Position numbers and translations under genes: made by a program. Below the pieces are notes generated by a model, which ran no database searches, was not told the origin of the DNA, and saw nothing but the letters and a program-made list of their open reading frames with translations. Shown one piece after another: positions 34,767-40,235 of a stretch of 64,000 nt of DNA. The DNA is from Thalassospira lucentensis (GTDB taxonomy: Bacteria; Pseudomonadota; Alphaproteobacteria; Rhodospirillales; Thalassospiraceae), in contig NZ_JAATOV010000001.1 in NCBI RefSeq assembly GCF_011806425.1, forward strand, positions 1 through 64,000. The letters run 5' to 3'. Positions within the stretch are counted from its first letter, which is position 1, and each line of letters opens with the position of its first letter.

Positions 34767-35252
34767 TTAGTCTTCAGCATCGATATCAATCGGCACACCG
34801 GGCATATTTTTGGCGGTGCGAATCGACAGGGCCGATTTCACGTGGTTGACGTTTTCCGCAACGGTTAGCTGGGTGGTCAGAAATTTCTGATACTCGTCCC
34901 AGCTATGGGAAACGATCTTGAGCAAGAAGTCCATTTCACCAGCGACCATGTGACATTCGCGCACTTCTGGCCATTCAGCTGCACGGGCTTCGAACGCGCG
35001 CAAATCATGTTCGGCCTGACTTGCCAGACCAACCATCGCAAACACCGTGACATTATAGCCAAGTGCCTGGGAATCGACATCTGCGTGATAGCCTTGAATG
35101 AAACCAGTTTCTTCGAGCGCACGTACGCGACGTAAACACGGTGGGGCTGATATTCCTGCACGACGAGCAAGTTCCACATTGGTCATGCGGCCATCTTCCT
35201 GTAGATCGCGCAGAATTCTGCGGTCGATCTTGTCGAGTTTGACCCGTTGCAT
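34767..35252 (-). CDS. Lrp/AsnC-family transcriptional regulator
   Basis: 161 residues. N-terminal helix-turn-helix (LDKIDRRILRDLQEDGRMTNVELARRAGISAPPCLRRVRALEETGFI) and a C-terminal RAM/ACT-like effector domain (about residues 70-150, VRECHMVAGEMDFLLKIVS). The length and SAPPCLRRV segment are typical of the global Lrp branch found across alphaproteobacteria. It binds DNA as an octamer or similar ring and senses amino acids, often leucine. Divergent from trxB; the palindrome at 35338 may be its site or that of another regulator. Confidence 0.92.
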   Translation of the reverse strand: MQRVKLDKIDRRILRDLQEDGRMTNVELARRAGISAPPCLRRVRALEETGFIQGYHADVDSQALGYNVTVFAMVGLASQAEHDLRAFEARAAEWPEVRECHMVAGEMDFLLKIVSHSWDEYQKFLTTQLTVAENVNHVKSALSIRTAKNMPGVPIDIDAED

Positions 35253-35586
35253 TTATTCCTCGATTCTGTGCGCTAAACTGACCTCGTACGAAACAATATT
35301 ACAGCGAGGTCCGATGCTGGCAATAATATATTCCGGTCAAGATTGCAATCTTGCGCTTCGATTTCGGCGCTGAAAATGCGCTAAAATCTGCTTTTGTTTG
35401 CAATTATCCGCAGGATCAAAGGCTCCCCCCCCATACAGCACACATCCCCCGCCAAATCGCGGAAATATCAAAGCAGCTAAATCGCGCCAAAAGGCAGGCA
35501 AACTTTGTGCGAAGCTGTTGCGTCTTGCCCGGTCAGTCAATATGTTCGACGTCAGTTTTAATTCACCTCGGACGATTACAAAGCAC
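35253..35586. other. Divergent intergenic region between the Lrp-type gene and trxB
   Basis: It holds a perfect palindrome at 35338-35353 and imperfect flanking repeats ACCTCG/CGAGGT at 35281-35310. The trxB frame remains open upstream to 35398 and beyond, but the encoded residues (proline-rich, MQLSAGSKAPPPYST) do not belong to the family, so I treat it as non-coding. Confidence 0.5.
35338..35353. promoter_or_regulatory. Perfect 16-bp palindrome, candidate operator
   Basis: CAAGATTGCAATCTTG is fully self-complementary. It lies 85 bp upstream of the Lrp-type start and about 234 bp upstream of trxB. A dimeric regulator is likely to bind here; the Lrp-type protein itself is the nearest candidate. 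Confidence 0.5.
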
Positions 35587-36540
35587 ATGGCCCAAGAACA
35601 TCAGACCAAAGTCCTTATCATTGGCTCCGGCCCTGCTGGATACACCGCCGCAATTTATGCAGCGCGCGCGAACCTCTCACCGATGATGGTGATGGGCCTG
35701 CAGCCCGGTGGCCAGTTGACGATCACAACCGACGTTGAAAACTATCCGGGTTTTGCCGATGTCATTCAGGGTCCTTGGCTGATGGATCAGATGAAGGCAC
35801 AGGCCGAACATGTCGGCACCAAAATGGTGCATGACCTGATCACCGAAGTCGATTTTTCCAAGCGTCCGTTTGTCTGTAAGGGCGATTCTGGCGATACCTA
35901 TATTGCTGATACTGTCATCATCTCAACCGGCGCACAGGCGCGCTGGCTTGGCCTGCCGGGCGAAGAAAAATTCAACGGGCGCGGCGTTTCGGCCTGCGCG
36001 ACCTGTGATGGCTTCTTCTATCGCAACAAACCGGTCACCGTGGTTGGCGGCGGCAACACTGCTGTCGAAGAAGCACTGTATCTTGCGGGTATCTGCTCAA
36101 AAGTCACCTTGATCCATCGCCGCGACGAACTGCGTGCGGAAAAGATGCTTCAGGAACGTTTGCTCAAACACGAAAAGATCGAAGTGGTCTGGGACAGCGT
36201 TGTAGAAGACATCCTGGGCGGTGATGGCCCGATGGATGGCGTTGAAGGTGTGCGTGTGCGCAACGTCAAAACCGGCGAAATGCTCGACATCCCGGCAGAC
36301 GGCTTCTTTGTGGCCATTGGTCACGATCCGGCAACCGGCGTATTTAAAGGCCAGGTTACCATGGATGATGAAAACTACATTCTGGTCAATCCGGGCAGCA
36401 CCACCACCAACATCGACGGTGTCTTTGCCGCGGGTGACGTAACCGACAAAGTCTATCGTCAAGCGGTCACTGCTGCGGGCATGGGTTGCATGGCCGCTCT
36501 TGAAGCTGAAAAGTTCATTGCAGAACAAGAAGCCGAATAA
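35587..36540 (+). CDS. trxB: Thioredoxin-disulfide reductase
   Basis: 317 residues from ATG 35587 (MAQEHQTKVLIIGSGPAGYTAAIYAARA). FAD-binding GSGPAG near residue 14, redox-active CATC at 137-140, second dinucleotide-binding loop VVGGGNTAVEEALYL for NADPH, and C-terminal FAD contact GVFAAGDVTD. Transfers electrons from NADPH to thioredoxin in the cytoplasm. A ribosome site is weak, but family alignment fixes the start. The LysR gene downstream is a frequent neighbour in alphaproteobacteria. Confidence 0.96.
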   Translation: MAQEHQTKVLIIGSGPAGYTAAIYAARANLSPMMVMGLQPGGQLTITTDVENYPGFADVIQGPWLMDQMKAQAEHVGTKMVHDLITEVDFSKRPFVCKGDSGDTYIADTVIISTGAQARWLGLPGEEKFNGRGVSACATCDGFFYRNKPVTVVGGGNTAVEEALYLAGICSKVTLIHRRDELRAEKMLQERLLKHEKIEVVWDSVVEDILGGDGPMDGVEGVRVRNVKTGEMLDIPADGFFVAIGHDPATGVFKGQVTMDDENYILVNPGSTTTNIDGVFAAGDVTDKVYRQAVTAAGMGCMAALEAEKFIAEQEAE

Positions 36541-36925
36541 GACCAATTTATTGGCAAATGATCTTTGCCCGTGATCATCGCTTGGACGGCAACCTACGCC
36601 CCACGCGGCATCATTGGGCATTTATGATCAACCATTCGATAAGGGGGTGCATTTTTGCATCCCCTTTTTTACGACGTCATTTTGCGTCAAGCCCCGCCAA
36701 TTACCTGACTTTTCATCGGAAATCGGCAAGACGGCAAAGATCGTTTTGCAAAATGCCTGCTTGCAGAAACCGTCACAGGCCTCATATTGAATTAATAATC
36801 ATGTGCTTGGGTCATTTGTGTGAGGCACTTAACAGTGTTGAAACCAAATTACCCCTAAAAGAAGAGCATTATTATCAGGGGACTGGCGCAGCGACCGTGC
36901 GGCAGTGACATCTAGGAGCAGGTCT
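36541..36925. other. Gap between trxB and the LysR gene
   Basis: No ORF that I can support. It contains the trxB terminator at 36643-36671, then about 250 bp with no recognisable gene, which should hold the LysR promoter. GGAGCAGG at 36915 is its ribosome site. Confidence 0.5.
36643..36671 (+). terminator. Intrinsic terminator of trxB
   Basis: GGGGTGCA and TGCATCCCC stem with a T-rich loop, followed by six T. Confidence 0.9.
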
Positions 36926-37855
36926 ATGGACTGGGACAAGCTGCGTGTGTTTCACGCTGTTGCAGAAGCTGGAAGCTTCACCCATGCGGGGGAAAATCTA
37001 AATCTGAGCCAATCGGCCGTAAGCCGACAGATCAGCGCGCTTGAAGAAAGCGTGAAGGTCCCATTGTTCCATCGCCACGCGCGTGGCCTTATCCTGACGG
37101 AACAGGGCGAACTTCTTTATCGCACCGCACATGATGTGTTTGCCAAGCTTTCCATGGCAGAAGCCCGCATCCGCGAATCCAAGGAACGGCCAAGTGGCCC
37201 GCTTAAGGTTACAACCACCGTTGCCTTTGGCTCGACATGGCTAACGCCACGGATTAACGAGTTTCTGGAGCGCTATCCGGAAATCGAACTGTCGCTTGTG
37301 CTCAATGACGAGGAACTTGACCTTGCCATGCGCGAAGCTGACGTCGCGATCCGCATGCAGCCGCCCCGTCAGGCCGACCTTGTTCAGCGCCAATTAATGA
37401 CGCTGCGCTATCATGTGTTTGCATCGCCCGAATACATTAAACAGTACGGCATGCCCAAAACACCCGAAGAGCTTAAAGATCACCGCCTGATCATCTACGG
37501 TGCGGATGCCCGTCCACCGGTGTCGAATGTCAACTGGATGATGGCAACCGCCCAGCAATTCAAACCTGACATGCGGCCGATCCTTAAGCTTAACAACATC
37601 TATGGCATTTTCCGCGCCACGGAGTCTGGCCTTGGTATTTCGGCCCTGCCCGATTACCTGCTGCCGACCACCAGCAATCTGGTGCGCATTTTGCCAGAGC
37701 TCGAAGGACCAAGCTTCGACGCCTATTTCGTCTATCCAGAAGAATTGCGCCATTCAAAGCGCATCGCGGTATTCCGTGACTTCCTGATTGAGGAAATTAA
37801 TAAGGTCAAAGCTAAGGCCGCTGCCTCCGCCAGCAGCGCCGTCCCAACAAGCTAA
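36926..37855 (+). CDS. LysR-family transcriptional regulator next to trxB
   Basis: 309 residues from ATG 36926, preceded by GGAG. Helix-turn-helix MDWDKLRVFHAVAEAGSFTHAGENLNLSQSAVSRQISALEE, effector domain from about residue 90 (PLKVTTTVAFGSTWLTPRI). The C-terminal tail is rich in lysine and alanine (KVKAKAAASASS). Members with this start and this position beside trxB are widespread in alphaproteobacteria; the regulon is not known to me. Confidence 0.92.
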   Translation: MDWDKLRVFHAVAEAGSFTHAGENLNLSQSAVSRQISALEESVKVPLFHRHARGLILTEQGELLYRTAHDVFAKLSMAEARIRESKERPSGPLKVTTTVAFGSTWLTPRINEFLERYPEIELSLVLNDEELDLAMREADVAIRMQPPRQADLVQRQLMTLRYHVFASPEYIKQYGMPKTPEELKDHRLIIYGADARPPVSNVNWMMATAQQFKPDMRPILKLNNIYGIFRATESGLGISALPDYLLPTTSNLVRILPELEGPSFDAYFVYPEELRHSKRIAVFRDFLIEEINKVKAKAAASASSAVPTS

Positions 37856-37910: not shown

Positions 37911-38379
37911 TATGCGCTGACAACATGGCACGACGCAATGCCGATAACAGCACGCATCGACCCGATGGCGGTAAATCTGTTCTAATATCGGATTGAAATA
38001 TCACGCATTTTCCGATTATGCACCCGGTACGGCTTATGTAGACACTCCCAGACACCGCGCATTAAACGCAAAAATGTGTAGCAAAAGACTCGGAAGGCAA
38101 ATCGCCACGCCCAACCCACGATACAAATCTGGTTTTCCCGCACCATTCTCGGTGGAAACGCGATTTAAACGCCCTTCTCACCGCGCCATACATGCCCCAA
38201 AATTGTCATAGTGACCTCAAACTATTGACATTTCCCAGTCATGCAACCAGCGCATGGTTGAATTGATCTTATTCAATTTTAAATCTGAGATAAGCACACC
38301 TATATTTGCATCATAGGTTGTGAGCACACGCAAAAGCGACAGTGATCCAACCGCCCTTTGATCAGGTGATGATCCGTTC
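37911..38379. other. Non-coding stretch before the sRNA cluster
   Basis: No protein gene supported. Small hairpins occur, for example CAACCA/TGGTTG at about 38244-38260 and an AT-rich TTGAATT/AATTTT pair just after. This region must contain the promoter of the first candidate sRNA, whose start I cannot place. Confidence 0.45.
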
Positions 38380-38490
38380 GCCAGAACGATATCTGGCACT
38401 GGAATCTTCTTACGATTCCATACGTCTCCCAGACGTAAGCCTCCCTGTTGATCTCGCCGGTAGCACCCCATGCTACCGGCATTTTTTTTG
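38380..38490 (+). ncRNA. Candidate sRNA 1 with CCC-loop hairpin
   Basis: Three successive hairpins: GCCAGA/TCTGGC (38380-38397), GGAATC/GATTCC (38401-38419) and TACGTCT-CCC-AGACGTA (38421-38437). A single-stranded linker with AGCCTCCCTG follows, then an intrinsic terminator GCCGGTAGCA/TGCTACCGGC with eight T (38456-38489). The block TACGTCTCCCAGACGT plus AAGCCTCCCTG recurs in candidate 2. The 5' end is not known; the annotated start is the first hairpin. C-rich loops and linkers of this kind act as anti-Shine-Dalgarno seeds in known alphaproteobacterial sRNAs (CcsR/cuckoo, mmgR); membership in those families is not shown. Confidence 0.7.
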
Positions 38491-38739
38491 CTTTAGCACA
38501 ATCGTTCTGCCTGTTCTTTATACATCTTGCTGAGCGCGAACATTCAAAAAGACAAATAATCTTTTAAAATCAATAATTTAAACGTGTATATCGCAGCCTT
38601 CTACATTTATGCAGATTTTGCATGGCTGAAAGAGCAATTTGACAGTGGTCTTTCCTGTCAAAAACGCTATCTTGCTTCTCGAACCGCAGCGGCAAACACC
38701 GCACGCGGTACAGAGTTTTCTCCCTGACCGTTTTTTCGG
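38491..38739. other. Spacer between candidate sRNAs 1 and 2
   Basis: AT-rich first half, no ORF. Contains a hairpin TTTGACAG/CTGTCAAA at 38638-38662 and GACCG-TTTTTT-CGGTC near 38726-38741. The first could be an operator: TTTGACAG resembles a -35 box on both strands. Confidence 0.4.
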
Positions 38740-38857
38740 TCTTTGTCGGGCTCCCAGCCCGGCATACCCAGGGCCCCGCGAGGGGTCCTACGTCTCCCAG
38801 ACGTGAAGCCTCCCTGATAAACTTGCCGGGCACATTTGTTGCCCGGCTTTTTTTTGT
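38740..38857 (+). ncRNA. Candidate sRNA 2 with two CCC-loop hairpins
   Basis: Hairpins in order: CGGGCT-CCC-AGCCCG (38747-38761), GGGCCCC/GGGGTCC with loop GCGA (about 38771-38788), ACGTCT-CCC-AGACGT (38790-38804). Then a linker with AAGCCTCCCTG and an intrinsic terminator GCCGGGCA/TGCCCGGC with eight T (38825-38856). The last hairpin plus linker match candidate 1 at 26 of 27 positions, while the terminators differ in sequence, as expected for diverged duplicates under selection on the loop and linker. The 5' end is not known. Confidence 0.72.
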
Positions 38858-39340
38858 CTTTTCCCAAGCATCTGTGACAGCCCCCGCACACTATGCCCCG
38901 CGCAAGCATGAGATGGCAAAACAAAGCATCGGCAGCACTCAAAGCGCTGCCCAAACCTGATTATCCGTGCGGCGAGCCTCCGGACCGATTCACGCTAGGC
39001 GCTTTTCAGGATTTCAATTTTCTGTCTGTTTCCATCAGACAGCCGCCCCGTCAGTAGATCACGACCAAGCGCGTTAAATACTACGCATATTTATCTTCTG
39101 AATTATCTTTGGCCGGTTATAGCCTTGTGAAACGCAAGCTTCAGCAAGAAGAACCAAAGCACCTGCGATGTCATATAGGAAGGAGATTGATTTCCTGGCA
39201 GAGCGAGCAAGACAAATGCCTCAGTCAGCGCAGCGCTATCTTGCCAACACTAGGCTCACGCCGCGCCATCCTAGCCAGACGCCACACATCTTTTAGCGAA
39301 TTGCCGTCCAGCACAAAATCGCTCACCCCCAAGTCGCAGA
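38858..39340. other. Non-coding stretch between the plus- and minus-strand sRNA pairs
   Basis: No supported gene. Contains a hairpin CTGTCTG/CAGACAG around 39021-39043. Its right end carries the T-tract of candidate 3. Confidence 0.4.
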
Positions 39341-39470
39341 CAAAATAAAAGTCCGGGGAGCCTAAGCTCGCCCGGACTTTGGGGACAGATGGTCTTGGGG
39401 AGACCTATCAGATGCTGTGCCTTACCCGTAGGGTGCAAGTGCTGTGGGGGACAGCGTTTTTACGGGTCCG
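39341..39470 (-). ncRNA. Candidate sRNA 3 with CCCCC- and CCCC-loop hairpins
   Basis: Read on the minus strand: an outer stem ACCCGT/ACGGGT (39467-39462 with 39429-39424) encloses a hairpin GCTGT-CCCCC-ACAGC (39455-39441). Next is GGTCT-CCCCA-AGACC (39405-39391), a linker ATCTGTCCCC, and a terminator AAGTCCGGG/CCCGGACTT-like stem followed by TTTATTTTG (39380-39341). The GGTCTCCCCAAGACC hairpin recurs exactly in candidate 4. The 5' end is uncertain. Confidence 0.65.
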
Positions 39471-39639
39471 ATGCTAGCGAGGGAGGGGCACCGCATCGAT
39501 GTTTGTGCATCTGACAATTGTGAATATGCCCGCGAATTGAGGCTCAAAAACCGGCCATACATGACCATTTATAGGCGAATTACGGCAAATTGCGGCAGGT
39601 GGTTTTGGCTGGGATTTTTGGGGGCATCGCGACCAACAC

Positions 39640-39780
39640 AAAAAAAAAGGGGGCGGGATAAACCCGCCCCAACTTATTCGGGGTCATCTTGGTCTTGGGG
39701 AGACCGATCAGCCGCGGAATTTTCAGGTGGGGGAAGTACCCGAAAAATAAGCGATCCAGCATTGTGAGGGGGGACAGATT
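39640..39780 (-). ncRNA. Candidate sRNA 4 with CCCCC- and CCCC-loop hairpins
   Basis: On the minus strand: ATCTGTCCCCCC near 39779, then a hairpin TTTTCGGGT/ACCTGAAAA with loop ACTTCCCCC (39746-39720), then GGTCT-CCCCA-AGACC (39705-39691) preceded by CTGATC, as in candidate 3. A strong terminator GGGGCGGG-TTTAT-CCCGCCCC with eight or more T (39670-39640) ends it. Shared pieces with candidate 3 are the CTGATxGGTCTCCCCAAGACC block and ATCTGTCCCC. The 5' end is uncertain. Confidence 0.68.
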
Positions 39781-40235
39781 TTGCTGACCGCGTCCTCGGC
39801 TGACAGTTAGGAATGTGACCGATAATCAAGGCGGGAAAACAGGCCGGTTTGGGCTATTTCGGGGCGAATTGTGGTTTAATAAGGGCAGCAAAAACCTAAG
39901 CCATTGATATTGCTCAGCTGCGCTCCAACACCCACCATCTGGTCACCGTAAAAAAACCGCCAAAAGGAATAAACTTTCCTAAAATCTCCTGCCTCTGGCG
40001 AAGGGGAAGCATCGGCCGGCATCATCAGTGACCTTAACAAACGCACGCTCACCACTGGGAAACATTGGCGGCAAAAGCAGAGCCACGGAATAACCACACA
40101 GATTGTAATAGAATTAGCCTATTGCAAACGATCAAAGGATTGATTGGCTTCTCTTTTCCCCATGCGCGATACTCAGACTTACGAAATGGGACGATAACCT
40201 TTTGGGGTCCCCCACCCTGACTAAAGGAGACGAAA
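39781..40235. other. Non-coding stretch before dps
   Basis: No supported ORF. It should contain the dps promoter and perhaps the promoter of minus-strand sRNA 4. The dps leader has GGGGTCCCC, a short palindrome, at about 40204-40212, followed by the ribosome site AAAGGAGA. Confidence 0.4.

Follow-up and report, generated by a model that had tools for sequence, protein, structure and literature searches.

What occupies the stretch of roughly 2.4 kb that separates the stop of a lysR gene (37855) from the start of dps (40236) in Thalassospira lucentensis? The window that we analysed, 64,000 nucleotides long, forms the start of contig C4 of a 4.5-Mb genome, and its gene order around this point is greA, an asnC-like gene on the minus strand, trxB, lysR, the gene-free stretch, dps and an amidase gene. 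A sequence-only reading had proposed that the stretch lacks any supported protein gene and holds four small RNA genes, two per strand. This picture holds: the seven ORFs tested among those listed for the stretch have no Pfam match, and each strand carries two RNA units that fold stably, contain C-rich motifs and end in terminators (Table 1). The interval 38380-39780 to which they had been assigned lies within the locus, but the features extend beyond it on both sides, from a VtlR-like box at 38252 to the end of a minus unit at about 39806. At Rfam gathering thresholds, a tRNA was the sole match in the whole window. All four units stay below threshold.

Table 1. Features of the lysR-dps locus, in coordinates of the window.
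Feature	Coordinates	Strand	Evidence
Lrp/AsnC-type regulator gene	34767..35252	-	NCBIfam Lrp/AsnC matches, below cut-off
trxB, thioredoxin reductase	35398..36540	+	TIGR01292 412 bits (cut-off 343)
lysR, LsrB/VtlR counterpart	36905..37855	+	best PDB match 9HH1, E 4.8e-99
VtlR-box-like site GCAT-N3-TG-N3-T, upstream of plus unit 1	38252..38264	+	21/21 genus regions
Plus unit 1	38311..38488	+	R1 55.5 bits; covariation; z -6.1
Relaxed box copy (GCATGGCTG...), upstream of plus unit 2	38620..38632	+	16/21 genus regions, absent in 5
Plus unit 2, paralogue of unit 1	38680..38858	+	R1 64 bits; z -6.2; suhB/SorX sub-threshold
Minus unit m2	39342..39516	-	R2 133 bits; covariation; fold, z -6.7
m2 upstream region: phased GCC/GGCC repeats + CATATTC	39517..39600	-	consensus of anchored upstream regions
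Minus unit m1	39640..39806	-	R2 26.7 bits; z -4.3
m1 upstream region, same architecture	39807..39890	-	same consensus

As had been claimed, each unit ends in a terminator. Three of the four were recovered by a terminator scan (stems 38456-38480 and 38825-38847 on the plus strand, 39670-39650 on the minus strand); that of m2 (about 39380-39342) is absent from the scan and visible in the fold. The scan returned 15 terminator-like sites between 37000 and 41500, against 5.0 +/- 2.6 in shuffled sequences. Compared with dinucleotide shuffles, folding z scores are -6.1 and -6.4 for plus units 1 and 2, -4.3 for m1 and -6.0 for m2, and with a second folding tool plus unit 2 scored -6.2 and m2 scored -6.7. 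The stable hairpins with C-rich loops of the sequence-only reading are real, but the exposure of these loops is nearly equalled in shuffles: the C-runs are mainly unpaired, and 5, 24, 0 and 7 per 100 shuffles reach the observed value in the four units. Exposed C loops alone are weak evidence because shuffled sequences come near the same accessibility, and we dropped C-run accessibility as proof of the units. The strong evidence for them is conservation.

The four units are two unrelated families of two members each. In this genome, R1, the core model of the plus family, is strong only at the plus units, and R2, a minus model built from 15 m2-type copies, matches only the minus units, and we rejected the proposal of a single redundant family of four as unsupported. 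The third R1 match in the genome reaches 23.2 bits; this further weak relative, at 8253-8331 of contig C7 on the minus strand, overlaps a suhB match of 25.5 bits.

The 5' end of plus unit 1, placed by inference from a TATATT at 38301, is followed by hairpins at 38380-38397, 38401-38419 and 38421-38437, the last with the apex CUCCCAG, of which only CCC is unpaired in the predicted fold; then come single-stranded CCUCCCUG at 38440 and the terminator. Plus unit 2, whose 5' end we placed by analogy with unit 1, has its core at 38784-38825, followed by its terminator. In 16 genus copies of plus unit 1, both sides change in 10 of the 28 pairs (shuffle mean 2.5), and 98.9% of the cells are paired, compared with 27-39% in slid controls. 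When the DNA of the locus was used as query, some part of it was matched in 56 of 60 genomes, namely in all 29 of the genus and in 27 of 31 others; among the matches listed, those in the 27 fall in the plus units. R1 matches 171 of 385 genomes of the class at E <= 0.01, some of them weakly. Its core is found in 54 of 68 named lysR loci from outside Thalassospira, always downstream of lysR and on the same strand. This count has to be read with the facts that 25 of the 68 loci gave rows to R1 and match by construction, that some of the 68 stop shortly after lysR, and that the 54 include one borderline locus (L090, E 0.0089) and one with the match 3.8 kb away (L098). The plus units are in tandem in Thalassospira, and just one of the 54 other loci has two R1 matches. 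In two genomes we noticed a third plus-type copy some kilobases off (at about 7241 in L037 of G021 and about 5636 in L051 of G010). Among 20 loci taken from the best R1 matches in the class, the match lies 156-470 nt after a LysR relative in 11 and about 1.9 kb after one in two more; the other seven are without such a LysR within the fetched stretch.

The best PDB match of the LysR protein, whose true start is probably 36926 and whose closest named relatives are from Thalassospira (up to 99% identity), is the LsrB of Agrobacterium tumefaciens (9HH1, PMC11975290). In A. tumefaciens the order trxB-vtlR-abcR1-abcR2 has been described, together with a proposed VtlR box, GCAT-N3-TG-N3-T (PMC7486931). 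In Sinorhizobium meliloti Ak57 we found asnC-trxB-lysR followed by two ar15 RNAs (110.2 and 106.5 bits). Our locus has the same arrangement: asnC-trxB-lysR is followed by a tandem pair of sRNAs encoded on the lysR strand, so that the plus pair occupies the position of AbcR1/AbcR2 (ar15, RF02345). The Lrp/AsnC-type gene opens this synteny block, common with Sinorhizobium, and an equivalent gene has the same position in locus L231; trxB precedes lysR in 75 of 80 named loci. The box lies 185-189 nt before CCTCCC in all 21 genus regions examined (the genus comprises 29 genomes in our set). Within 400 nt downstream of lysR, 10 of the 68 order loci have the strict box, compared with 1.4 in shuffles and none in lysR coding sequence, with the reservation that in at least two of the 10 it lies beyond the core and not before it. 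Of the 47 loci in which a pattern defines the unit, 30 have a looser GCATG/CATGC between -200 and -145.

Like AbcR, whose M1 motif CUCCCA forms the loop of the first hairpin and whose second motif is GUUCCC (PMC5461406), the plus units combine a CUCCCA apex and a second single-stranded C-rich motif with a VtlR-type box upstream. Unlike AbcR, they have GCCUCCCUG as second motif, they carry extra 5' hairpins, and their CUCCCAG apex sits in a later hairpin with only CCC unpaired. They also do not belong to ar15 as modelled: the ar15 model (threshold 40 bits), with the two S. meliloti RNAs as its positive control, has no match at the plus units up to E 10 in the genome search, and ar15 is absent from the Rfam matches of the locus too, where a rule of one match per clan could hide it under suhB. 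A search with RF02345 over the 385 class genomes was uninformative, with no match there and none in its controls either, and it was replaced by cmscan of the S. meliloti and Sinorhizobium loci. Conversely, R1 reached at best E 0.96 at the lysR loci of S. meliloti, Sinorhizobium K101, the A. brasilense Sp7 chromid (with no trxB annotated there) and Methylobacterium. The partner protein differs as well. A heading in PMC11975290 calls LsrB unique to Rhizobiales, and S. meliloti LysR has three cysteines, whereas the aligned LysR has none in the window protein and in all 12 named Thalassospira loci; in the 68 other loci of the order, 53 are without cysteine and 15 have one. It is therefore unlikely that these LysR proteins sense thiols in the way described for LsrB. 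We see in the plus pair a syntenic and probably a functional counterpart of AbcR, perhaps as a diverged homologue or as a replacement.

The sequence-only reading had also suggested a distant branch of the CcsR/cuckoo or mmgR groups. For mmgR this stands in part, for the plus pair only: up to E 10, the units have sub-threshold matches to suhB/mmgR (29.6 bits, plus unit 2; RF00519 threshold 41) and to SorX (27.0 bits, and 26.3 bits in plus unit 2; RF02784 threshold 46.6), while the genome's own mmgR/suhB RNA, of 52.4 bits, lies apart from the window units at 84380-84450 of contig C10, minus strand. What the plus family has in common with SorX and with mmgR/suhB (alpha-r8) is the 3' module CCUCCCUG...terminator, at 22.8-38.7 bits; it differs from both in falling below threshold wherever tested, including the best SorX relative in the family (38.7 bits). 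Rfam 15 thresholds were reached in none of 32 plus-family loci (20 of the class and 12 of the order). No CcsR or cuckoo name appears among the 16 Rfam matches of the locus up to E 10, which counts only if Rfam holds such a model. On the minus strand, m1 matches SorY at 24.3 bits, far from its threshold of 111. Our searches of an open-access collection of papers found nothing on these RNAs, and published small-RNA work on Thalassospira lists 18-25-nt 'miRNAs', none of which, in portions of its main text, we recognised as coming from these units (PMC6413936).

The minus units are built differently. In m2 a closing stem P1 (39507-39516 with 39406-39415) is accompanied by a P2 hairpin with a CCCCUCCC loop, a P3 hairpin with a CCCCC loop (centroid fold), a P4 hairpin GGUCUCCCCAAGACC (39391-39405), an unpaired UGUCCCC and the terminator. 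In m1, P1 is formed by GTCAGCCG/CGGCTGAT; hairpins with CCCCCC and UUCCCCC, a P4 (39691-39705) identical to that of m2, GACCCCGAA and the terminator make up the rest. Accessible C-runs number about four per copy in the family and three in each window unit. Covariation was assessed on 71 R2 matches from 28 genomes (66 distinct rows), in an alignment fitted to the model: both sides change in 20 of 25 pairs (shuffle mean 13.7, with 20 reached by none of 500 shuffles), and 92.6% of cells are paired, compared with 28-41% in slid controls. The MAFFT alignment A5 gave 7 of 25 pairs (shuffle mean 2.1) and 97.5% paired against 23-44%. RNAalifold on the ragged alignment A1 returned just nine pairs, and cleaner subsets were used instead. 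G-U cells outnumber A-C cells by 66 to 14, or by 63 to 5 when columns 1, 10 and 28, judged poorly paired, are omitted; this excess indicates that the minus strand is the RNA. The compensatory changes that were to be sought in homologous loci are thus present in both pairs, and covariation, synteny and conservation together argue for sRNA genes with anti-Shine-Dalgarno-like C motifs. The five pairs without two-sided change form the P4 hairpin, which is exact in stem and loop in 67 of the 71 copies (three have one change and one partial match is without P4), a constancy that is partly selected for, above all in low-scoring m1-type copies, since P4 belongs to R2. Across 33 m2-type copies, gathered at first with the P4 pattern, three blocks do not vary: CTCCCTC in the P2 loop, P4 and CTGT-CCCC.

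Upstream of the minus units, a consensus could be drawn from 36 of 53 regions (one of them mis-anchored; 17 were not anchored), and CATATTC ends the repeat region just before the closing stem. By eye, the GCC/GGCC repeats are about 10-12 bp apart. The common architecture suggests a common regulator of the minus units, and the phasing could possibly mark the site of a cooperatively binding one. R2 detected all 29 genomes of the genus and none of the 31 others of the order, in searches whose filters can lose weak matches. In the class it matched four of 385 genomes: two belong to the genus, and the other two are marginal matches at E 0.009 that we regard as chance. Copy number is 1-2 in 23 of the genus genomes and 5-7 in the other six (G007, with matches spread over three contig stretches, G010, G019, G023, G026 and G027). 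The sequence-only reading had noticed neither that the minus pair is restricted to the genus and grows into arrays nor that the plus pair shares the lsrB/AbcR synteny.

We consider it likely that the stretch holds four sRNA genes of two families, an AbcR-type plus pair under the control of an LsrB/VtlR-type LysR and a minus pair that acts like sX13 through multiple CCCC sites. Conserved RNA folds, the minus strand, terminators, synteny, the box and the distribution were observed; transcription, regulation by LysR and target pairing are what we infer. The LysR encoded next door would control the plus RNAs, which would silence mRNAs by pairing their CUCCCAG apex and single-stranded CCUCCCUG with Shine-Dalgarno sequences. 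In the minus RNAs, a covarying scaffold would present several fixed C-rich motifs, which would pair or kiss with G-rich runs of mRNA leaders. The sX13 RNA of Xanthomonas has stable hairpins with apical CCCC/CCCCC loops, as the minus units do, and depends on GGGG motifs of its target mRNAs (PMC3771888). It has three loops, whereas the minus RNAs carry about four C-runs per copy, inside a closing stem, and form arrays; sX13 (RF02232, threshold 50 bits) gave no match at our locus up to E 10, and its one match in the minus family (17.5 bits, E 2.8, in L047) is not significant. LhrC of Listeria, from another phylum and likened here by description only, is also a multicopy sRNA. The LhrC family has C-rich sites. 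An RNA that pairs with many G-rich partners would be expected to keep its C motifs fixed while its scaffold varies, and sX13-like pairing with G-rich leaders appears the most likely role of the minus pair by analogy.

The same constancy could be read otherwise. The minus RNAs might sequester a C-specific RNA-binding protein, in the manner of CsrB and CsrA, with the CCCC hairpins, above all P4, as protein sites and arrays that raise capacity. An invariant P4 stem and loop, next to 20 other modelled pairs that all change on both sides, would suit such a site, as would the several sites per RNA and the growth of arrays. Nevertheless, we know of no titrated C-specific protein of such a kind, and a match of the rpoN leader to the complement of P4, stem bases included, in several genomes (GTCTTGGGG/GGTCTTGGGG) would explain the invariance of the stem by pairing; we thus hold sequestration to be unlikely. 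For the plus units, the alternative is that they are products of the lysR mRNA 3' UTR and not independently transcribed, processed as SorX is cut from the 3' UTR of a regulator mRNA, ompR-1 (PMC8625941). SorX is indeed their top sub-threshold Rfam relative (up to 38.7 bits, with 9 of 11 class loci matching), and the strand of lysR is shared in all 54 loci. However, the box and a TATATT-like element are conserved upstream of the plus units, and the seven of 20 class loci without such a LysR in the fetched stretch fit poorly with an origin in its mRNA, which makes this account quite improbable. A reading of the minus units as an expanding REP-like repeat without function, which folds because it is palindromic and has tandem copies in some species, is very hard to believe in view of the compensatory changes across copies, the fixed C motifs and the similar upstream region in anchorable copies.

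If the minus RNAs pair with G-rich leaders, as we favour, rpoN, recognised by its Pfam Sigma54 domains, would be their best candidate target. The P4 loop has TTGGGGAGA as its perfect partner, and this sequence occurs at eight genome sites, two of which are the minus units themselves. The six non-self sites, from which rpoN was chosen post hoc, lie 36 nt before rpoN, at the Shine-Dalgarno position of an NYN-like ORF, before a possible GTG start, inside ORFs (two) and near none (one). The NYN-like gene (so named by eye) was rejected as a target, with a site at that position in just two of the 29 genus genomes. Each of the 29 genomes has at least two G4 runs within 50 nt upstream of rpoN, where the left flank varies; the background for at least two such runs is one of 49 ORF leaders in the window and 0.9% of 60-nt tiles. 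Ranked together with 40 window leaders, that of rpoN comes first when the partner is P4 or the UGUCCCC segment, and second to ninth for the eight other segments, those of the plus units included. Within the 3.4-kb rpoN locus, its leader is first for P4 pairing in 16 of 29 genomes, fourth to fifth in five and 31st to 75th in eight, and all five array-bearing genomes tested fall among these eight: their clade keeps the G-run before rpoN but not the extended P4 match. In several genomes, the leader matches the P4 complement over stem bases too (GTCTTGGGG or GGTCTTGGGG). The post hoc choice and the array-bearing clade count against rpoN, and so does the region downstream of it, which takes in the leader of the next gene and likewise has a G4 in 29 of 29 genomes. 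Most of 13 sequences of that leader (the gene is hpf/raiA-like by position and eye) carry GAGGGGC and TGGGGAT-like runs. A test of pairing with leaders versus coding sequence in 40 genes was discarded, as four of six C segments favoured leaders and the reversed control did so equally.

Outside the genus, the lptB-rpoN spacer has no G4 in four Azospirillum records (three have one inside lptB), none in Sinorhizobium and one near the start in Methylobacterium (one record each), and minus RNAs gave at best E 0.25 at the four lysR loci searched in bacteria of these three types. On this reading rpoN may be a target of the minus RNAs. One could go further and imagine an RNA control of sigma-54 that is Thalassospira's own, in which array RNAs carry a frozen kissing hairpin GGUCUCCCCAAGACC and CCCC sites, the lptB-rpoN spacer gained two conserved G-runs as docks, and the lsrB/dps stress locus became coupled to rpoN translation; we regard this scenario as doubtful.

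The structural evidence for both families is good, and no Rfam model reaches its threshold with either. Regulators of this kind are known, and the two families are new variants whose proposed functions are inferred. The plus family looks like an AbcR counterpart across a large part of Alphaproteobacteria, as its distribution in the class indicates, and the partnership of sRNA and LysR would be separable from thiol sensing, because the LysR proteins here are mostly without cysteine. The minus family is a naturally occurring example of fixed C motifs set in a covarying scaffold, with copy-number change within one genus, and it offers, in rpoN, a concrete and testable candidate target.
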